Source of the DNA: a virus
IMG/VR virus record: IMGVR_UViG_3300009194_000008
Location: 1-64,000 of that record
Length of the DNA: 64,000 nt
Direction: 5' to 3' (one strand)
Each line of letters starts with the position of its first letter. The stretch's first letter is position 1. Below, in pieces: positions 13,897 through 63,157 of the stretch. A program made the position numbers and the translations under genes. The notes under the pieces were generated by a model. The model was not told where the DNA came from and ran no database searches. It saw nothing but the letters and a program-made list of their open reading frames with translations.

Positions 13897-14457
13897 ATGA
13901 CCGTTAAAGCCGACGACATTAACATCACCCTGATCGCCGCCATGAACTACCGACGAGTACTGGGGGATGGTGAGAAACTCCTCTGGAAAAACCGTGAGGA
14001 CCTCAACCACTTCAAGGAGATGACTGAGGGCCATGTGCTGGTGATGGGGCGTCGGACCTATGACTCACTGCCCTTCGAGGGGGGTTTCCCCAACCGCTGG
14101 AATATCGTGATCAGCCGCACACCGTTGTTTGCTGACACGACAACACTGCGTAACGCCGGTGGGGTAATCAATGCACTGGCATTGGCACGTGACATGGCGG
14201 CTGATCTGTCTAACCGGTTTGACAAGACCCATAAGGTGTTCTGTGTCGGAGGTGGTGAGGTTTATCGTGCGGCACTGGAACATGCCGACCGCATCCTCTT
14301 AACTACCATCCCCAATGATCTCGAAGGGAACGTAACCTTCCCGGTGTTTGAGCAAGACTCTTCTTGGGTACTGGAAAAACAGGAGGTCGGAGATACCCGT
14401 CAAGACGGTAGTGCCAACATCTACACTGTCTGGGAGCGCAATCAAAACACCGCCTAG
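13897..14457 (+). CDS. Dihydrofolate reductase
   Basis: The 186-residue product has the DHFR signature in order: ITLIAAMNYRRVLGDGEKLLW near the N-terminus with the substrate-binding loop, VLVMGRRTYDSLP for the NADPH-binding helix, NIVISR for the next strand and VFCVGGGEVYRAAL for the Gly-Gly cofactor motif. It reduces dihydrofolate to tetrahydrofolate with NADPH in the cytoplasm, which supports thymidylate synthesis during phage DNA replication. Length is slightly above the bacterial norm of about 160. CAGGAG lies upstream. No thymidylate synthase gene is in the window. Confidence 0.87.
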   Translation: MTVKADDINITLIAAMNYRRVLGDGEKLLWKNREDLNHFKEMTEGHVLVMGRRTYDSLPFEGGFPNRWNIVISRTPLFADTTTLRNAGGVINALALARDMAADLSNRFDKTHKVFCVGGGEVYRAALEHADRILLTTIPNDLEGNVTFPVFEQDSSWVLEKQEVGDTRQDGSANIYTVWERNQNTA

Positions 14458-55474: not shown

Positions 55475-55960
55475 TCAACGTAACCTAAGGTTGATCCCAT
55501 CAAAATGGAAGCGGTCTTCTACTGTTTCGTTCCACAACAACTCCACAGGATGACTGTACGAGTCTTCGATTGACCGTAGTTCACGAATCAACACCCCCCA
55601 CTGTTTTTGAAAATATCGAACGGAGGAGAACGAATCTCCACGGTCGATGTAGCGAATAAGATAATCATCCAGTAGGGATGGGTGTGGATACACTCGGTAA
55701 TGAAAAATTTCCTGATTGATGAGTTGTTGAATGATGGGCATCTCAGTCGCAGCGAAGATAATCCTTGCGGTTGATAGATGACACTTTAACATTCTAATGT
55801 AGTTTACCGGAAAAGTCGGATCACCGCGGTATCCATTTGTATCGAGGTCTATCACCGTATCATCCGGTATGGATTTCGTGTGATATAGTTGGTTTTGTAT
55901 TGACCGGAACATCCGGGACTTTCCCACGCCCGGAAAACCACAGACGACATGTGGTTGCAT
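55475..55960 (-). CDS. P-loop NTPase/kinase-like protein, 161 aa
   Basis: The product starts MQPHVVCGFPGVGKSRMF with a Walker A at residues 8-15 (GFPGVGKS). VIDLDTNGYRG (about residues 36-46) could be a Walker-B-like or substrate Asp, as in small phage kinases. The remainder is helical. It is the last gene of the radical SAM operon, 5 bases after the 2OG-oxygenase gene. It may phosphorylate a small molecule or peptide, but this is inference. Confidence 0.68.
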   Translation of the reverse strand: MQPHVVCGFPGVGKSRMFRSIQNQLYHTKSIPDDTVIDLDTNGYRGDPTFPVNYIRMLKCHLSTARIIFAATEMPIIQQLINQEIFHYRVYPHPSLLDDYLIRYIDRGDSFSSVRYFQKQWGVLIRELRSIEDSYSHPVELLWNETVEDRFHFDGINLRLR

Positions 55961-55965
55961 GAGGG

Positions 55966-56517
55966 TTACCCGAATGTGAAGTCAGTGGTTAATGCTACCC
56001 GAAACTCCCCTGGGTGGGGGAGTACATAGTGAGGGATGTAACACGGAAAGATCACCATCATACCCGTTGTCGGGGAAATGTGGTGATTCGCGAAATATCC
56101 ACGTCGAACCGGTGTGGGGTATGATCGACATGCCGCACCACGGGGATCCATCAGGGTGAGGTCCCCTGGCGCCGCCGCAAGATACAACACCGTGGTCAAC
56201 AGTGAATGACCGTGGATATGGGGTTCAATCCCGGCGTTGTTATGTCCATGAACCGCCCAACTGTGATAGGACATTGTTGATTCGTCAATTGGGTAATCCC
56301 AGCAGTCTTTTGTGTACTGTAAGACGGCTGGTACGATTACCTCGCGCCGCAAGCGCCACAAGTAGGGCGTGTGTTCCTCACTAATGATCTCTTGCTCGTC
56401 CGCACCCCACTGGGCCATTTGCGGACTACTAAAGATTTCAGTAATGGCGCGTTCTTCGTCGATGTCCTTTATAACCTGTTGTCCAATCTGTGTGCGCCAC
56501 GGTTCATGGTATTCCAT
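55966..56517 (-). CDS. 2-oxoglutarate/Fe(II) oxygenase
   Basis: The 183-residue product matches the small phage 2OG-Fe(II) oxygenase type. EPHIHGHSLLTTVLYL carries the first iron ligand (H100 or H102), LTLMDPRG carries a conserved D-P-R, VIFPCYIPHYVLPH carries the distal His (H163), and R173 should bind 2-oxoglutarate. It overlaps the radical SAM gene by one base (ATG/stop), so the two are coupled. Family members hydroxylate peptides, nucleobases or small molecules; here a peptide or protein made by the same operon is the most likely target, by inference. Confidence 0.8.
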   Translation of the reverse strand: MEYHEPWRTQIGQQVIKDIDEERAITEIFSSPQMAQWGADEQEIISEEHTPYLWRLRREVIVPAVLQYTKDCWDYPIDESTMSYHSWAVHGHNNAGIEPHIHGHSLLTTVLYLAAAPGDLTLMDPRGAACRSYPTPVRRGYFANHHISPTTGMMVIFPCYIPHYVLPHPGEFRVALTTDFTFG

Positions 56518-57611
56518 TACGCCTCCCGGCTAGTGGCAATTAAACCACTCTCATTAACGTAGGGGGTAGGTTCCAGCTGACCTGTCATCCCATTAGCTTC
56601 GATAATGTCTGGTGCTAGACGTTTCATTTTCTGACAATGGTGTTCGACCAGACCCAAGGCCTTATGGTCGTGGGTTGTCTTTTTGCAGGAATTACAAATC
56701 GAAAACATGGGACACCCATAACAGCTATACTTCATCACGCTGATTTCGGGGTCGTTCTGTAGTGGTGTGGTCAACTCTCCGGTCATTTCACTATTAAAGT
56801 CAATCGCGTATTTTTTATCGTCAGCAAATGCTGGACAGCTATAGTAGTCGCCGGATGGTTGTAGCGTACGTATCCCTGCATCACACTGTCGCGACAATGG
56901 GCAAGTAGTGAGTTCCCCTCTCAACTTACGTACCATCTGCTTTGTATTATATTCCCACTCCGTGAGGCCGGCTTTCCATATATCAACGTAGTGTCCATAC
57001 ATGTCAGCAAGTAGGTAAAGGGATCCCTCATTGCCCATTTGTCGGCCTTTGATCTCTACCGATGGCCCCGATGACATTGCGTAGTTGGCTTTACATTCAA
57101 CTTCCATCTCACGGGCCAGACGGACGTGATCCAAAACCCGGTCGGCATTGTCTTCATCGATAACCGAAATGAAGTCTGGCCGGTAACCACAGATATCCAA
57201 CATGCAATCGGAGACTTTCCAGAACTCTTCTTCGGTAAAGGGGGTAAAATCCCCCTTCAGTCGCTTATCGCCGTACTGGAAACTGGTAATTACCGAGAAC
57301 TTTGGGTGTTGAAAAACCGCCCGCCAACGCTCGGGTTTCTTGTAGAACGGCCACAGGTTACTGGTGATACTTACAATAACATCAAGGTTCTCATCATCGA
57401 GGTAGTCCAGCAGTTCTTGGTAATAGTCAGGGGTCATCATCAGCGGATCGCCACCGTTGACAATAATTGTCTCTGTCTCCGGGAACCTAACCAGGAAGGC
57501 TTTGATTTGATCCAATGACAACTCATCCCCTGCATCATCGGCAATCGACGTACTGGAACAGAAGGTGCATTTGAAATTACACCGTTCTGTTGGTTTAATT
57601 ACGAGATCCAC
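56517..57611 (-). CDS. Radical SAM enzyme with SPASM-like Cys cluster (second)
   Basis: I choose the GTG at 57611, 5 bases after AAGGAG. The product has the radical SAM triad CNFKCTFC (C11, C15, C18) for the 4Fe-4S/SAM cluster, then TIIVNGGDPLM in place of the usual GGEP loop, and a C-terminal Cys-rich region (CDAGIRTL, YYSCPAF, CYGCPMFSICNSC) of SPASM type with extra clusters. Such enzymes modify peptides, for example RiPP precursors. GGDP instead of GGEP is a variation. It lies four genes downstream of the first radical SAM gene in the same operon. Confidence 0.85.
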   Translation of the reverse strand: MDLVIKPTERCNFKCTFCSSTSIADDAGDELSLDQIKAFLVRFPETETIIVNGGDPLMMTPDYYQELLDYLDDENLDVIVSITSNLWPFYKKPERWRAVFQHPKFSVITSFQYGDKRLKGDFTPFTEEEFWKVSDCMLDICGYRPDFISVIDEDNADRVLDHVRLAREMEVECKANYAMSSGPSVEIKGRQMGNEGSLYLLADMYGHYVDIWKAGLTEWEYNTKQMVRKLRGELTTCPLSRQCDAGIRTLQPSGDYYSCPAFADDKKYAIDFNSEMTGELTTPLQNDPEISVMKYSCYGCPMFSICNSCKKTTHDHKALGLVEHHCQKMKRLAPDIIEANGMTGQLEPTPYVNESGLIATSREA

Positions 57612-57620
57612 ACCCACTCC

Positions 57621-58682
57621 TTAGTCGGCCCACCCGACTTTAACTGGATTGCCTGACGCACGGTTGGCCAGTGCCCAGAAAACCAGATTCGTGGTAAACA
57701 TGCGCGATTCCATGGGAGGAACAATGAGCGTCAACCGATCCAACTGCGTATAAGCGTCAATATACCCGTCCACTATTTCGTCGTCGGGGAGTTCGAGAAG
57801 TTCAATCGGCACAGTCATTTCACGCACATTTGTCTCGAGGTACGTGTTGGTGTTGATGGTGTTAAGGAGTTTGCGGAGATCGTGTTGATATCCTTCCTTA
57901 AACGCCACGATTTTCTCAGAAGATGAAAATACATCTTCAAGGTCAACCTCACGCGACACTACCTTGAGTCCTTCGATATCACGCAGTGGGGAATTCATAG
58001 TCAGTGTAGCGGTGGGGAGCTCCCCTAGCATCTTTTTAATATGTGGCGAGAAATACAGATACCCCAACTTACTCCGTTGTGTTTCTATTTGATCATTAAT
58101 TGCCCGATAAAGGCGATGACGTAGTCGTGTGGGTAAGGTAGTATCCTCTTCACCTGCCATATGGCCGAGCAGGCGGTATTCCACCGGGAGGTGTTCGTGG
58201 TGGTTGTTCAAAAACTCAAATACTACATCGGAGCGCGACATTTCTGTCATGCACCGTTTGATAAAGTTAGGTGTTGTCGTTTCACTACCCCAAATGAACG
58301 TTGATTCAGAGCGTTCACGGTTAAGGAACAGTAAGAACGCAAGTTCACACAGCGCGCTATGGGAAAGCTTTGGGAACAGGTGACGAACCCAGAAACAGAA
58401 AAGCTTGACATAGGCCTCGTCGTCACAGAAGATAACCACGGGCCTGTCGCGGTCACATAACAGTTCTAACTCATCAGGAAAAACACTCGTAATAAAGTCA
58501 TCGACGTCCTTGGTATAATAACAGGTCTGTGCGAGTTCTGGAATACCTAACGACTTCGACAGTCGATCATCTTCGGATTCTAGAAAATGATCCTCAATAC
58601 CACTACCAATGATGTATCGTTGGGTGTTACTGTTGAGGTGGTCAATATGGTCAACATAAACGTCGTCAAATAACAGGTACAT
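57621..58682 (-). CDS. Unrecognised protein in radical SAM operon, 353 aa
   Basis: I choose the ATG at 58682, preceded by TTAGGAG. It overlaps the upstream gene by 17 bases. The product is soluble and acidic, with an N-terminal Rossmann-like or receiver-like stretch (MYLLFDDVYVDHIDHL) and helices after. No catalytic motif is recognised. Being locked between the radical SAM genes, it is a candidate for a precursor-binding, leader-recognition or partner protein of the modification system. AT content by eye is higher than in flanking fibre genes. Confidence 0.68.
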   Translation of the reverse strand: MYLLFDDVYVDHIDHLNSNTQRYIIGSGIEDHFLESEDDRLSKSLGIPELAQTCYYTKDVDDFITSVFPDELELLCDRDRPVVIFCDDEAYVKLFCFWVRHLFPKLSHSALCELAFLLFLNRERSESTFIWGSETTTPNFIKRCMTEMSRSDVVFEFLNNHHEHLPVEYRLLGHMAGEEDTTLPTRLRHRLYRAINDQIETQRSKLGYLYFSPHIKKMLGELPTATLTMNSPLRDIEGLKVVSREVDLEDVFSSSEKIVAFKEGYQHDLRKLLNTINTNTYLETNVREMTVPIELLELPDDEIVDGYIDAYTQLDRLTLIVPPMESRMFTTNLVFWALANRASGNPVKVGWAD

Positions 58683-59397
58683 TCTCAACTCCTAATTCAC
58701 TAACCGCTTTATTGAACCGAGCGATAAACTCTTTCTCATCAAACTCGCCCTGCTGTATCCCGATGCCGATCAGGAATACCGGATTTTCAGCATTACACCA
58801 AAAAAGTTCCAGTGTACTTCCCCGGTAAAGGGGTTTATCGTAAAGATCCTGATAGTAACACAACGGAATAATGGGGGTGCCATCCAGGAGTAATGGGAAC
58901 AGATCGTGGCCGATTAGTTTAATATAGTTAATTCCCGTTAGATCCCGATCGGTTACTACCTCGTGTTGTTTGAAAATATAGTCCTCATTGACCCCGGTCC
59001 ATTTCATGTTGTAGAGACTGAGTGACTCGATAATACTCAGCCAACGGTAAATAATGTCACGGTTTTGAGGGTCGATGATAAGATCGTGGTAGTCGATCCC
59101 CGACTCACTGGCAAACCCTTTAATTTGTAGTAATACTTCTAGGACGCCACGTTCCAGCTGAGGTAGGTCATGCACCATAGGAGAGCGCATATACGCCAGC
59201 AACAGAGAAAAATAATCATCGGTTGATGTAAAATCTAACGTTACTTCCATTCCGAGGTTGGTCAAATACGTCAAAAATACTTGCCCTTCAAGTTTCGACT
59301 CCGCTACGTCGATAACCACCTCAGGCGTGGGCTTCTCAGCCACCAGTCTTTTGATAACATCGGTGGGGACTGGAACTACCGTATTAATTGCTTGCAT
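58666..59397 (-). CDS. Unrecognised protein in radical SAM operon, 243 aa
   Basis: AGAGGACAACCTAG precedes the ATG. The 243-residue product is acidic and mostly helical with a few strands, without membrane segments or known motifs. It lies 25 bases downstream of the CHxS-repeat gene and overlaps the next gene. A partner or immunity-type role in the modification system is possible but unproven. Confidence 0.66.
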   Translation of the reverse strand: MQAINTVVPVPTDVIKRLVAEKPTPEVVIDVAESKLEGQVFLTYLTNLGMEVTLDFTSTDDYFSLLLAYMRSPMVHDLPQLERGVLEVLLQIKGFASESGIDYHDLIIDPQNRDIIYRWLSIIESLSLYNMKWTGVNEDYIFKQHEVVTDRDLTGINYIKLIGHDLFPLLLDGTPIIPLCYYQDLYDKPLYRGSTLELFWCNAENPVFLIGIGIQQGEFDEKEFIARFNKAVSELGVENVPVI

Positions 59398-59422
59398 CTA
59401 GGTTGTCCTCTATACTTAGTTT

Positions 59423-59995
59423 TTACACACCACCACCGTTACCTGGACCGTCGCCATGACAGCTAGAGTGGCAACTATAATGGCAGCTAGAATGACAGAA
59501 TGTTTCGCTGATGGATACCGTTGAATTCCGTACATTGACCACCTTATTCTTTACCGCCGTCATGTACGATCTCAGATCGCCATAATCGACCGGATTTCCA
59601 GCGGCCGTGCCACTGCCTCCAGGATCACTAATACCTGTCCTATAACCACTATGTAGATGACCAATGCGGGTCTCATTAGCAAATACATAATACCTGGAGT
59701 TATTGTTGTACCGCATATACACTGAAACACGGCGGATTGCTGTGTACAGCGCGGCATGTGCGACAATACGACTGCGCATGGTAGACGAGTCAATATTACC
59801 GGAGAAGTCACTGGTACTTGGACTATTGTAAAGTCCATTTTTCGACCCAGTGAAGTACGACTCGTATGTACTCCGGGCATAGCCGTTGTAATCAGGTGGG
59901 TAATTGCCACTTCCCCAACTAATTCCCGAATTCAGAGGATTTCGAATGTAGGCGTTAAACAGGTTAACGACGTGCTGTGATGTAACATCGGTCAT
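59423..59995 (-). CDS. Putative modified protein with (CHxS)3CH tail
   Basis: The 190-residue product starts with a polar, Tyr/Ser/Asn-rich domain of about 160 residues. It ends with a strikingly regular tail: Cys at 167, 171, 175 and 179, each followed by His, with Ser before each later Cys, so the unit is Cys-His-x-Ser repeated three times then Cys-His. A Gly-rich end (GDGPGNGGGV) follows. The H-x-S spacing recalls HxsA of His-Xaa-Ser RiPP systems. It lies between a radical SAM gene (6 bases upstream) and other operon genes. I infer it is the substrate of the radical SAM enzymes; the N-terminal part may be a virion domain. Confidence 0.72.
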   Translation of the reverse strand: MTDVTSQHVVNLFNAYIRNPLNSGISWGSGNYPPDYNGYARSTYESYFTGSKNGLYNSPSTSDFSGNIDSSTMRSRIVAHAALYTAIRRVSVYMRYNNNSRYYVFANETRIGHLHSGYRTGISDPGGSGTAAGNPVDYGDLRSYMTAVKNKVVNVRNSTVSISETFCHSSCHYSCHSSCHGDGPGNGGGV

Positions 59996-60001
59996 GTTTC
60001 A

Positions 60002-61042
60002 TTATCCTTCAATCATCGTAAGTGGGATGAGGTTGTCGCCGCCTCTCTGGATGTAACGCAAAAGATTTTTCAAACCACCGCACCGGTCACCCTGCCAGGG
60101 AAGTTGATGACAATCACCGCCACATAGATGAAACACATCACACTGTAAACAGTTGGGGTGAAAATTCAACTCGTGGGTGATTTCAGCAAGTCGCCCATCG
60201 CTGGTAAGAAAGGTTTCAACACTGTCGTCAATCGTGGCATGTTTATTACTTGCTGCGGTGTTGGGACATCCAGCGAGTGACCCATCGGCGTTCATTGTTA
60301 CTAGATTCTGTTCGCAGTTACGGCAGTTGGTGTCTGTCTTAACCACCTGTGTATCAAGCTTCTCCTCAATTATATCTAAGGTGCCGATTGAGAAATTCCA
60401 ATGGTACTGTGGATCCTTGTATAATTTATAGACCTCGACAAACCAATTATCTTGAGCTTCGTTATCCGGAAAGATCGCCGGGTTGCGCACGGCGTTACCA
60501 TCCAGCGTCAGGCGTTCCAGTTTGATGTTCTCCGGCGCTACCTGTTGCATCTCATTAAGGAACTCCATTATCTCCATATTCACCAGTTCGGTGTTGACCG
60601 AAACAAAAACACACCGTGGAATCCCTTCGTTCTTCAAGATGGCAACATTCTTTTCCCATAGCGCCTTTTGGTTATGGGTTTCAAAACGAATCCCTACATC
60701 CCAGCTGGTACCGACAAACCCAATGCGGCGTAAGAGCGCCAGTTTCCGATCATCCAACTTCAACACGAGGTTCGTCGTAATTGTAATTGCAACATTTGGT
60801 TGTTTTTCATAATAGGCAACGAATCGTTCCAAATCCTCTATGGGGGCAAGAAGTGGCTCACCTCCATGTAGGATCAGCATCACCTGTTCCCCTTCTGGGT
60901 AGTGGGCGATAAATTGATCAATCCAGGCAATGGTGGCGTCTGCATCCCACTTGACTTTACTCCCGTTGCGTCCGTTAGTAAAGCAGTGGTCACAATGCAG
61001 GTTACAAGTATCGGACGTCTTAACATAAATTGCCTTACTCAT
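60002..61042 (-). CDS. Radical SAM/SPASM peptide maturase (first)
   Basis: GAGGATGT precedes the ATG. The 346-residue product has the radical SAM triad CNLHCDHC (C13, C17, C20), the HGGEPLL loop (about residues 59-65), and a C-terminal SPASM region with CRNCEQN, a further GCPN, and CLQCDVFHLCGGDC followed by DRCGG. This is the layout of anaerobic sulfatase maturases and RiPP maturases. It should make radical-based changes such as thioether or C-C links in a peptide. It lies 6 bases upstream of the CHxS-repeat gene, its likely substrate. Confidence 0.88.
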   Translation of the reverse strand: MSKAIYVKTSDTCNLHCDHCFTNGRNGSKVKWDADATIAWIDQFIAHYPEGEQVMLILHGGEPLLAPIEDLERFVAYYEKQPNVAITITTNLVLKLDDRKLALLRRIGFVGTSWDVGIRFETHNQKALWEKNVAILKNEGIPRCVFVSVNTELVNMEIMEFLNEMQQVAPENIKLERLTLDGNAVRNPAIFPDNEAQDNWFVEVYKLYKDPQYHWNFSIGTLDIIEEKLDTQVVKTDTNCRNCEQNLVTMNADGSLAGCPNTAASNKHATIDDSVETFLTSDGRLAEITHELNFHPNCLQCDVFHLCGGDCHQLPWQGDRCGGLKNLLRYIQRGGDNLIPLTMIEG

Positions 61043-61048
61043 ACATCC

Positions 61049-61750
61049 TCACGTCAGCGGAGGGAGTTTAGTGTCGTCGATCAGATGTTCTCTGAACCAC
61101 TTGATCACTACGTACTTGGTGTGGGTGACTACAGGTGTAGACAGGTGGTGGGCCTTATTGTCGGCTGTCGCAAGGGGGTAGTTAAAAAACAACAACGACC
61201 CTTTTTTTGGGTAAACGCAAATACCCAAGTGATCAAAGCAGGTACCGCCATCACCATGTGTGTCATTTAAATACATGACCATGGTACCGACCCGTTGTCC
61301 TCCATTATCAAGTGCCCGAGAACGGTTTTTTCCTTCGCCAAAGAAATCATGGTGTCCACGGATACCTTCGTCGTAGTCGTACCGAACAAAACTACTACGT
61401 TCCGTTTTAAACCGTGGCCATAATGTAATCGCCTCAAGGCGTTCTTCAAACCTCTTCATAATCGGACATGAACTACGTTTTAGAGCTTTCCCATATGCAG
61501 TGCGACGCTCGTCAATAACCTCATTACCTTCATGGTCTAAAAGAAAACCCATGCGTTTGAGACCGGTGTTGTATTTTTCGATGAGGGTATCGCATTCAAC
61601 ATCGGTTAGAAAATGATCGATAACTCTAACATGCGGGTCATCAATGGAGAGACGTACACAACAGTCATCTGGAAGTAGGTGACGTGCACTGTTTAGGGAG
61701 TGCTCACTGATGGTTGGTGCCACACGGTACGGGGGTATCGGGTATGACAT
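61049..61750 (-). CDS. Prolyl-4-hydroxylase-like 2OG/Fe(II) oxygenase
   Basis: I use the ATG at 61750; an in-frame ATG at 61834 lies right after a hairpin/TATG element and could add 28 residues. Motifs fit P4H-type enzymes: VIDHFLTDVECDTLI near the N-terminus, RYDYDEGIRGHHDFF with the H-x-D iron ligands, VMYLND and GGTCF after, and HHLSTPVVTHTKYVVIKWF with the distal His and the 2-oxoglutarate-binding Lys. It should hydroxylate a Pro or other residue in a protein. It is the first gene of the eight-gene modification operon, 6 bases before the first radical SAM gene. Confidence 0.82.
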   Translation of the reverse strand: MSYPIPPYRVAPTISEHSLNSARHLLPDDCCVRLSIDDPHVRVIDHFLTDVECDTLIEKYNTGLKRMGFLLDHEGNEVIDERRTAYGKALKRSSCPIMKRFEERLEAITLWPRFKTERSSFVRYDYDEGIRGHHDFFGEGKNRSRALDNGGQRVGTMVMYLNDTHGDGGTCFDHLGICVYPKKGSLLFFNYPLATADNKAHHLSTPVVTHTKYVVIKWFREHLIDDTKLPPLT

Positions 61751-61830
61751 TAATAGGTACTCTGGGTGGAGTGATGGTATTTCTATAATATTCCCTAACG
61801 GGGTATTCCTCCACCAACCCGGATAGACCC

Positions 61831-61858
61831 ACATAGTGGGCGGTCCTTAGACCGCCCA
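61831..61858 (-). terminator. Hairpin plus CTATGTG, start of the modification operon
   Basis: TGGGCGGT and ACCGCCCA form a perfect 8-bp stem, followed on the minus strand by CTATGTGG. It lies between the 61871 fibre gene and the modification operon, and may end one unit and start the other. Confidence 0.68.
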
Positions 61859-61870
61859 CCTTGTGGTGCC

Positions 61871-63157
61871 TTATTGCCACTGTGGCGGCCACACGGTTCG
61901 CCATGAACCACTAACCCGTGCCTGGAGCTGTCCATTGTAAACTCTCAGGCTGGTTTCGTCGCTGGAGTTTTTGATCACGTAACGACTATCGTGTTCATTA
62001 CCCGCAATGTGGTCATTCAGTGCCTGACGAACACGCTGCGGTGTCATGAAACGGTTGCCGGCGGTACCATTCACAGCATCACTGTAAGAGGCAGTCGGGT
62101 AGTTGTCTACATTACCTAACCCCACCTGAGCTTTCGTAACGTTGTGTGGGTTGTTGGTGTTAGTGGTATGTTGCTCCAACTGCCGTCCCGCTTGGAAATC
62201 AATGGCTTGCGCGGTGCGCAGTGGGGTCATATACCGATCGTTACGATCCCCAACTTCAGCCTCGCCCTGGGATGAAAGAGTAAAATCCTCCACCCGACCA
62301 AGACCCACTTGAGTTTTCGTGACGTTATGGGGGTTGTTATAATCATCACGGTGACTACGAAAGTCCCGACCTAGATGAAAATCAACCCCGTGGACCAAAC
62401 CCTCTACGGTTATAAAGCGGTTATTCGCGGTTCCTGTTTCAACTTCCAGTAACGTTGCGGTAGGGTAGTTATTCACTGAACCCAAACCCACCTGGGCTTT
62501 CGTGACGTTATGGGGGTTCGTTGAGTTGGCTTTGTGGTCCTGGAACCGACCATCGAGAGCATCGGTATAGTCCTTCCCAACGTCGAGCAGTTCCCGGGCG
62601 TACGCCCGTACTTCGTCATGAATTGACTGATCACCCACCACAATCGCTTGGACAACGCGTTCTAACTGGATGACCAGATACTCAAATCCATACAACTCCC
62701 ATAGCGCATGTAGATGCCCTCCTGGGGGGTATTCCGATGGCTTACCAATGATCTCGGCCCATTCAACTGGTCGATCATCATCTTTCAGGGTTTGAAGTAC
62801 CTGCTCCAGCGCGGCTGTTGAAATTGCAAAGTCACCACCCACCGCCTGGTAGTCGACGGTGACTTCTGAGGTAACATTGGGGTCAATAACAACCAATGTA
62901 CCACAAACTTCCAGACCGCTGCGGGTAGTAGCATCCTCGTATAGGTAGGTGGCAATGTAATGGACATCGGGTTTTAACCGAAGGCCCGAAGAATCCCTAA
63001 GGACCAAGGACTCGGTATAAAACGCGCCATTGTTAGGAACAAATACACGCATGCCATCACGTGAGTTTTCCACCAGGGTATGGCGTTCCCCAATGACCAG
63101 ATTGTCTGGATTTCGTCCAGTCAGGTCCAACGGATACTTACGAATTAACGGGGTCAT
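61871..63157 (-). CDS. Tail-fibre protein with NPHNVTKAQVGLG repeats
   Basis: GTGGAGTAATCG precedes the ATG. The 428-residue product has a beta-rich N-terminal domain (about residues 1-110), a coiled linker, then three repeats of about 55 residues. Each has H-x(6)-N-P-H-N-V-T-K-x-Q-V-G-L-G near its centre followed by a helix with R-F/Y-x-T/V. The end is a short beta part (LRVYNGQLQARVSG). This is the classic long-fibre repeat of tailed phages. It likely forms a trimeric side fibre. Confidence 0.83.
   Translation of the reverse strand: MTPLIRKYPLDLTGRNPDNLVIGERHTLVENSRDGMRVFVPNNGAFYTESLVLRDSSGLRLKPDVHYIATYLYEDATTRSGLEVCGTLVVIDPNVTSEVTVDYQAVGGDFAISTAALEQVLQTLKDDDRPVEWAEIIGKPSEYPPGGHLHALWELYGFEYLVIQLERVVQAIVVGDQSIHDEVRAYARELLDVGKDYTDALDGRFQDHKANSTNPHNVTKAQVGLGSVNNYPTATLLEVETGTANNRFITVEGLVHGVDFHLGRDFRSHRDDYNNPHNVTKTQVGLGRVEDFTLSSQGEAEVGDRNDRYMTPLRTAQAIDFQAGRQLEQHTTNTNNPHNVTKAQVGLGNVDNYPTASYSDAVNGTAGNRFMTPQRVRQALNDHIAGNEHDSRYVIKNSSDETSLRVYNGQLQARVSGSWRTVWPPQWQ

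Follow-up and report, generated by a model that had tools for sequence, protein, structure and literature searches.

What radical enzymes do in the structural gene block of a large phage is the question raised by one locus of IMG/VR record IMGVR_UViG_3300009194_000008. The window, by which we mean the whole stretch analysed (64,000 nucleotides, positions 1 to 64,000), is part of this 98,858-base record, and the locus within it is a cassette of eight tightly packed open reading frames (ORFs) on the minus strand (55475-61834). They encode, among others, two radical S-adenosylmethionine (rSAM) enzymes, two iron/2-oxoglutarate (Fe/2OG) oxygenases and a protein with a C-terminal tail of Cys-His-x-Ser units, here called the CHxS protein. 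In order of transcription the spacings are +6, +6, +25, -23, +3, -1 and +5 nt, in agreement with the initial annotation, which had described eight joined genes with small gaps or overlaps; P4 starts with TTG, rSAM-B with GTG, and the other six genes with ATG. The CHxS protein ends in CHSSCHYSCHSSCHGDGPGNGGGV, and its motif and end read FCHSSCHYSCHSSCHGDGPGNGGGV, which confirms the three units plus Cys-His that had been recognised there. The same annotation had proposed a modification operon with this protein as substrate. Judging from sequence, the tail is very likely the substrate of the cassette enzymes, and the best explanation overall is that the locus is probably a cassette for the maturation of a virion protein.

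The linkage between rSAM genes and the CHxS tail is far beyond chance. An alignment of rSAM-A (A1), the enzyme encoded alongside the CHxS protein, was scanned against 2.9 million viral contigs, and 80 loci were kept. Three of these end too soon; at each of the remaining 77, one of the next two genes downstream encodes a CHxS tail, usually the first of them and usually with the ending CHxSCHxSCHxS-RGRR-stop; the motif was strict at 73 and relaxed at four, e.g., CHTQCHSNCHNSRGRR and CHSNCHINRSRR. Neither BLAST nor a pattern scan gave a match when the CHxS protein of the window was the only query, because only the tail is conserved, and the rSAM-A scan overcame this. Many further loci were added by DNA-pattern scans, and counts from these refer to the matches listed. 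All 32 large CHxS contigs carried rSAM genes, with four or more on 30 by a conservative count, and up to 15. On 25 contigs, mainly of a tandem-pair subtype, no rSAM-A neighbour was visible; rSAM genes were still present on 23 of them. The other two are fragments with CHxS near the contig end, and five or six rSAM genes are found in their relatives with the same CHxS (near-identical or same-family) on longer contigs. CHxS homologues that lack rSAM neighbours, which had been named in advance as evidence against the operon, were looked for and none was found. Among 32 contigs with chance motifs, one carried rSAM genes; since its motif adjoins a P5 gene at the contig end, it is taken as a real member, which leaves 0/31 in a control set whose contigs were smaller on average than the CHxS contigs, with two of them over 220 kb.

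The same arrangement was found in cultivated phages. A tblastn search with rSAM-A recovered seven isolate records from six phages: Pseudomonas phage pPa_SNUABM_DT01, Sinorhizobium phage Phosso, Agrobacterium phage Atu_ph07 (two records), and Burkholderia phages SURPRISE13, FLC8 and FLC6. At five distinct isolate loci the protein encoded directly downstream of rSAM-A has (CHxS)3 and then RGRR or RSRR at its end. All six phages share the tail, and the bodies of their CHxS proteins are only 23-28% identical to that of the window protein; tblastn with two marine CHxS proteins gave no isolate match. The genes are most often arranged as tail fibre, cupin, rSAM-A, CHxS, P5, P4, rSAM-C, rSAM-B, rSAM-D, rSAM-E, and myophages of no fewer than three kinds carry the cassette. 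By these sequence comparisons it appears to be a conserved cassette of hundreds of large phages, in which rSAM-A, cupin, P5 and P4 recur as neighbours of the tail, and this conserved linkage in several phage groups strongly supports the operon as proposed. A second cassette type, seen at L247:3107-3930, L188, L219 and similar loci, has a tandem pair of CHxS proteins of about 130 amino acids (aa), followed by rSAM-E, a 366-aa protein without PHROG matches, P5, and more rSAM-E genes. Burkholderia phages FLC6 and SURPRISE13 have two dihydrofolate reductase genes within the cassette (L006:14406-15583, L007:14319-15532); the window has a dihydrofolate reductase-like ORF, judged by eye, at 13897-14454, distant from the cassette. 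Cellular genomes gave at least 120 pattern stretches; among the 120 listed, three have a canonical tail, all on contigs of metagenome-assembled genomes (L363, L381 and L315, binned as Rickettsiales, Bdellovibrionaceae and Euryarchaeota), which are possibly viral and may be misbinned phage.

Within the tail, residues C167, H168, C171, H172, C175 and H176 were invariant among 48 to 57 aligned homologues. Such invariance is to be judged from the rSAM-A-derived set, which is the unbiased one; in pattern-derived ORFs the Cys and His are set by the search pattern itself, and RGRR was required by no scan. There were 202 distinct CHxS-pattern ORFs among the matches listed, three of which are chance, and 192 of the remaining genuine ORFs (about 199) end CHxSCHxSCHxx-R[GSA]RR at the stop codon, with Ser at the fourth unit position in 191/192. 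The closest relative of the window, locus L008 (71% identity in rSAM-A and 54% in CHxS), differs from it at nine tail codons; the six at C, H or S are all synonymous, and the three nonsynonymous ones all fall at x. Both codons of Cys and both of His occur freely in the 177 distinct DNA sequences of the tail. Since changes at C, H and S are synonymous and the Cys and His codons vary freely, the protein sequence of the tail is under selection, which preserves its C, H and S even as the body changes. Cysteine was absent outside the tail in 176/264 canonical ORFs. Two loci (L014:10036-10737 and L029:10034-10714) have expanded tails, with several CHxS blocks and SNVPV or SNVV spacers before RGRR, natural variants that are useful with respect to enzyme processivity.

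The CHxS protein has no Pfam family, matched no NCBIfam model at an E value of 0.1, and gave no meaningful match when the PDB was searched by sequence and by fold. In the AlphaFold2 (AF2) model of the window protein (predicted local distance difference test, pLDDT, 87.7 overall) the body is mostly above 90, and a low-confidence, disordered tail departs from the last strand at residue 167. A BFVD fold search with the body matched six phage proteins below 0.001. One of the six, A0A2L0UZF9 of Atu_ph07 (296 aa, E 1.3e-5), is, judged by length, probably gp170. The body fold was also observed in BFVD entries A0A8S5USJ8, A0A8S5USJ7 and A0A8S5USV2 (Myoviridae sp. ctijX18; 500-660 aa).

Several lines of evidence suggest that the CHxS protein is part of the particle. 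Peptidase_S74 chaperones are a domain of trimeric phage fibres, and the CHxS protein of L008 continues into one (1.5e-11), while the neighbours of CHxS cassettes include tail-fibre, spike, PAAR and baseplate-wedge genes. For Atu_ph07, virion clusters have been defined by mass spectrometry, one of them being CDS 170-215 (PMC6102473). CDS 170 (gp170, YP_009611835) is the CHxS gene and the first of that cluster, the numbering having been checked by the portal (gp198) and capsid (gp215); its position opening the cluster is a strong but indirect argument, made at the level of the cluster, that gp170 is in the virion. Presence of the CHxS protein in the virion is thus considered likely, probably in association with the tail fibre or baseplate. 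Of the two roles suggested in the initial annotation, a modified virion protein is favoured by the tail and spike neighbours, the S74 fusion and the Atu_ph07 cluster, and the toxin-like peptide is disfavoured. A secreted or injected toxin or signal made from the tail, in the manner of a ribosomally synthesized and post-translationally modified peptide (RiPP), would suit the resemblance of the rSAM/SPASM enzymes to RiPP maturases, an RGRR that could serve as a processing or recognition signal, and the intein/Hint domain that follows one tail; it seems quite unlikely, however, given the folded substrate body (about 110-290 aa), a gene position within a structural block beside fibre, spike and baseplate genes, the place of gp170 at the head of a virion cluster, and the lack of any recurrent transporter or protease gene among the cassette families. 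The intein/Hint domain (Hom_end_hint, 2e-15; L137:1-1248) stands straight after the CHxS tail and is truncated where the contig stops; inteins tend to occupy conserved functional sites.

Metal-ligand residues are present in tail-tip proteins such as T4 gp37, P2 gpV, Mu gp45 and PAAR proteins, with His-liganded iron at the tips of the first three. The tail might likewise be an unmodified metal-binding tip, with Cys/His ligands for, e.g., Fe or Zn, while the rSAM enzymes act on other virion proteins. Its adjacent Cys-His pairs, Ser-rich composition and C-terminal position would fit, as would the spike and PAAR genes that relatives have nearby and the trimeric fibre part suggested by the S74 fusion in L008. 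Unlike the known tips, the tail has a period-4 CHxS repeat, a link to radical enzymes, and a body fold without a PDB match, and it is difficult to account for the 77/77 linkage to rSAM-A, and for the rSAM genes on every large CHxS contig, if the tail is not the substrate. An unmodified tail is therefore considered unlikely, although metal binding and modification are compatible, and both may be true.

Both rSAM proteins fall in phrog_1802 and exceed the Pfam cut-off of 29.5 bits for PF04055 (Table 1). The two share CxxxCxxC at residue 13 and keep C-x9-15-G-x4-C. Downstream, rSAM-A has the Cys motif CX2CX5CX3C (7-Cys pattern) and rSAM-B a variant, CX2CX5CX2C; rSAM-B has 56-60% identity to jumbo-phage relatives. 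The radical SAM/SPASM identity given to rSAM-A stood, as its TIGR04085 score is over the cut-off of 27 bits, and rSAM-B is a radical SAM enzyme in which SPASM is borderline (23.4 bits, below the cut-off). The curated NCBIfam models closest to rSAM-A are those of cyclophane maturases and anaerobic sulfatase maturases (anSME), with every score well short of its family cut-off. The rSAM/SPASM enzymes resemble RiPP maturases, with no cut-off of a maturase family reached, and because all curated scores are so low rSAM-A is a separate branch, with a bond type that is not readable from its relatives. With anSME among its best PDB and NCBIfam relatives (TIGR03942, 59.5 bits), rSAM-A could be conceived as an anSME-like enzyme that converts tail Ser or Cys to formylglycine, the aldehydes of which would bind host surface amines. 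This is highly improbable: the score falls far short of the 349.45 bits set as cut-off, the cyclophane maturase YhhB scores equally (59.5 bits), and there is no sulfatase-type CxPSR motif.

His-Xaa-Ser systems, to which the cassette had been likened, also have two rSAM enzymes beside a protein with short, H-containing C-terminal repeats, and to that extent the comparison was sound. Membership was rejected by curated cut-offs: rSAM-B scored 29.3 bits with HxsC, against 267.9, HxsB was not among the 25 best NCBIfam families of either rSAM protein, and neither HxsA nor HxsD was among the matches listed. The phage repeat differs in having a Cys frame and mostly an RGRR end, and the cassette in its structural context, its oxygenases and the number of rSAM genes per contig. 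Sactipeptide/ranthipeptide and cyclophane maturases (PapB, YhhB, FxsB, DynA) share a SPASM rSAM core, an adjacent ribosomal substrate and a Cys-rich or small-residue motif, but the phage enzymes score far under their cut-offs, and the substrate is a folded protein of 130-300 aa with a C-terminal motif rather than a leader-core peptide. A short leader-core precursor, protease and exporter, as expected of RiPPs, were not found among the recurrent cassette families, and the body is confidently folded.

The two oxygenases of the window, as initially annotated, exceed their Pfam cut-offs (27 bits each), and the P4H-type enzyme keeps HxD and the distal His (HHD at 161, HH at 229). Genes for 2OG oxygenases recur, interspersed, in related cassettes. 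A cupin precedes rSAM-A in 144/150 canonical loci, and in the window, which has no cupin at this position, and in L008 a P4H-type oxygenase holds that place. The cupin is a phage protein of 150-205 aa that reached 28.4-48.2 bits with JmjC_2 (PF08007, cut-off 22) in 7/8 tested, and 13.8 bits in L055. JmjC ribosomal oxygenases of PF08007 (YcfD/RoxA, NO66, MINA53) are Arg/His hydroxylases; the phage cupin resembles them in this match and differs in its size, in its place in an rSAM operon, and in that the window has a P4H-type enzyme instead. A link between cupin and RGRR, both absent from the window and L008, is not claimed, as it rests on one clade. P4 and P5 have neither a Pfam family nor an NCBIfam match, in keeping with their initial description as unrecognised. 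P5 adjoins CHxS in most loci and lies near it in tandem-pair loci; its AF2 model is confidently folded (pLDDT 93.1), and nothing in the PDB matched it meaningfully, whether by sequence or by fold. The P-loop assignment fared less well, with sub-cut-off Pfam matches and no NCBIfam match, and since only the window and L008 carry this gene, it is probably outside the core cassette. Genes for A-type Fe-S carriers (PF01521) were observed on 8/32 large CHxS contigs (G074, G073, G082, G079, G081, G007, G083 and G012), and might feed the rSAM enzymes.

The maturation of a virion protein can be pictured as follows. The folded N-terminal body would present its flexible C-terminal (CHxS)n tail to rSAM-A after translation, and rSAM-A would start radical chemistry on the Cys/His/Ser units. 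Thioether formation is a common rSAM chemistry on Cys-rich peptides, and because the three or four fixed-frame Cys are the most conserved residues, Cys-centred thioether or C-C cross-links would be the most likely products, although Cys-based cross-linking is put forward tentatively, at somewhat less than even odds. Further rSAM/SPASM enzymes and the Fe/2OG or JmjC oxygenases of the operon may add bonds or hydroxyl groups, while P5 and P4 probably serve as scaffolds, as chaperones or in binding the peptide. Once complete, the tail would be incorporated into the virion, where it would form a rigid tip that resists proteases, possibly binds metal and makes contact with the host, a role that is conceivable but slightly on the doubtful side. 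As a general proposition, it is evenly balanced whether large phages use some two to fifteen rSAM enzymes together with Fe oxygenases and, in certain phages, A-type Fe-S carriers of their own to produce a heavily cross-linked Cys-His-Ser tip on a tail protein. We know of no virion with a post-translational modification of this type, a radical-built cross-linked tip. Certain points weigh against virion-protein maturation as set out here. Modification of the tail is a prediction from genes, linkage, conservation, enzyme motifs and predicted fold, the Cys/His invariance of the pattern-derived set arises by construction, and P4 and P5 are without assigned function. The tail of the window itself lacks RGRR, and its oxygenase is unlike that of most relatives. 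In addition, tandem-pair loci adjoin other rSAM genes rather than rSAM-A, so one enzyme-substrate rule is not valid for all loci.

The genome setting is that of a tailed phage. The major head protein, polymerase and virion proteins of the record match phrog_3231, 2943 and 3004, and from these matches it reads as a phiKZ-like jumbo-phage contig. Upstream of the window, the cassette is preceded by genes for SbcC and for a spike-type baseplate protein (phrog_3216), together with a fibre gene, an arrangement much as in pPa_SNUABM_DT01 and FLC6; with the virion protein gene directly upstream, this bears out the reported location among tail-fibre genes. The tail-fibre-like protein contains repeated NNPHNVTK-AQVGLG units.

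Table 1. Genes and features of the cassette and its upstream neighbour, in window coordinates.
Feature	Position	Strand	Match or remark
Tail-fibre-like virion protein, directly upstream of cassette	61871..63157	-	phrog_2163 virion structural protein, 1.2e-126
P4H-type Fe/2OG oxygenase	61049..61834	-	PF13640 39.6 bits
rSAM-A, radical SAM/SPASM enzyme, usual partner of single-copy CHxS genes	60002..61042	-	PF04055 36.4 bits; TIGR04085 29.0 bits
CHxS protein, proposed substrate, 190 aa	59423..59995	-	body residues 1-166, then (CHxS)3-CH and Gly-rich end
(CHxS)3-CH motif DNA, residues 167-180, CHSSCHYSCHSSCH	59456..59497	-	sequence reading
P5 (phrog_20767)	58666..59397	-	conserved neighbour of CHxS
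P4, without known family	57621..58688	-	usually follows P5
rSAM-B, second radical SAM enzyme, SPASM-like Cys	56517..57617	-	PF04055 40.3 bits
Second Fe/2OG oxygenase	55966..56517	-	PF13759 42.9 bits
P-loop protein (phrog_4182)	55475..55960	-	sub-cut-off AAA/helicase matches

Multiple rSAM genes have been noted in phages before. According to the available text of the two reports, 332-Vera has eight radical SAM genes inside its structural cluster (PMC12390700) and the marine T4-like EVG has 12 (PMC5332604); one of them calls the multiplicity 'highly unusual', and that text reports no substrate or CHxS tail. Likened by rSAM multiplicity, the two are very probably cases of the same phenomenon. The six rSAM genes of pPa_SNUABM_DT01 were attributed to DNA repair and host metabolism (PMC8541153). 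In the open-licence PMC literature we found no description of the CHxS tail, though a preprint or subscription paper could exist, none of radical SAM modification of phage baseplate proteins, and, as first supposed, none of a phage system with this gene set. There is a real chance that the cassette, which would belong to the known rSAM/SPASM maturase-substrate kind, is a new type of virion maturation.

The proposal of one conserved substrate for phage rSAM enzymes would explain why there are so many rSAM genes per phage, and turns a puzzle of auxiliary metabolic genes into a testable question on particle assembly. If it is true, chemists would gain a large untapped SPASM enzyme family with an easily spotted substrate motif, the Fe-S carriers of some phages may be tied to a viral need, and radical-generated modifications would be added to virion biology.

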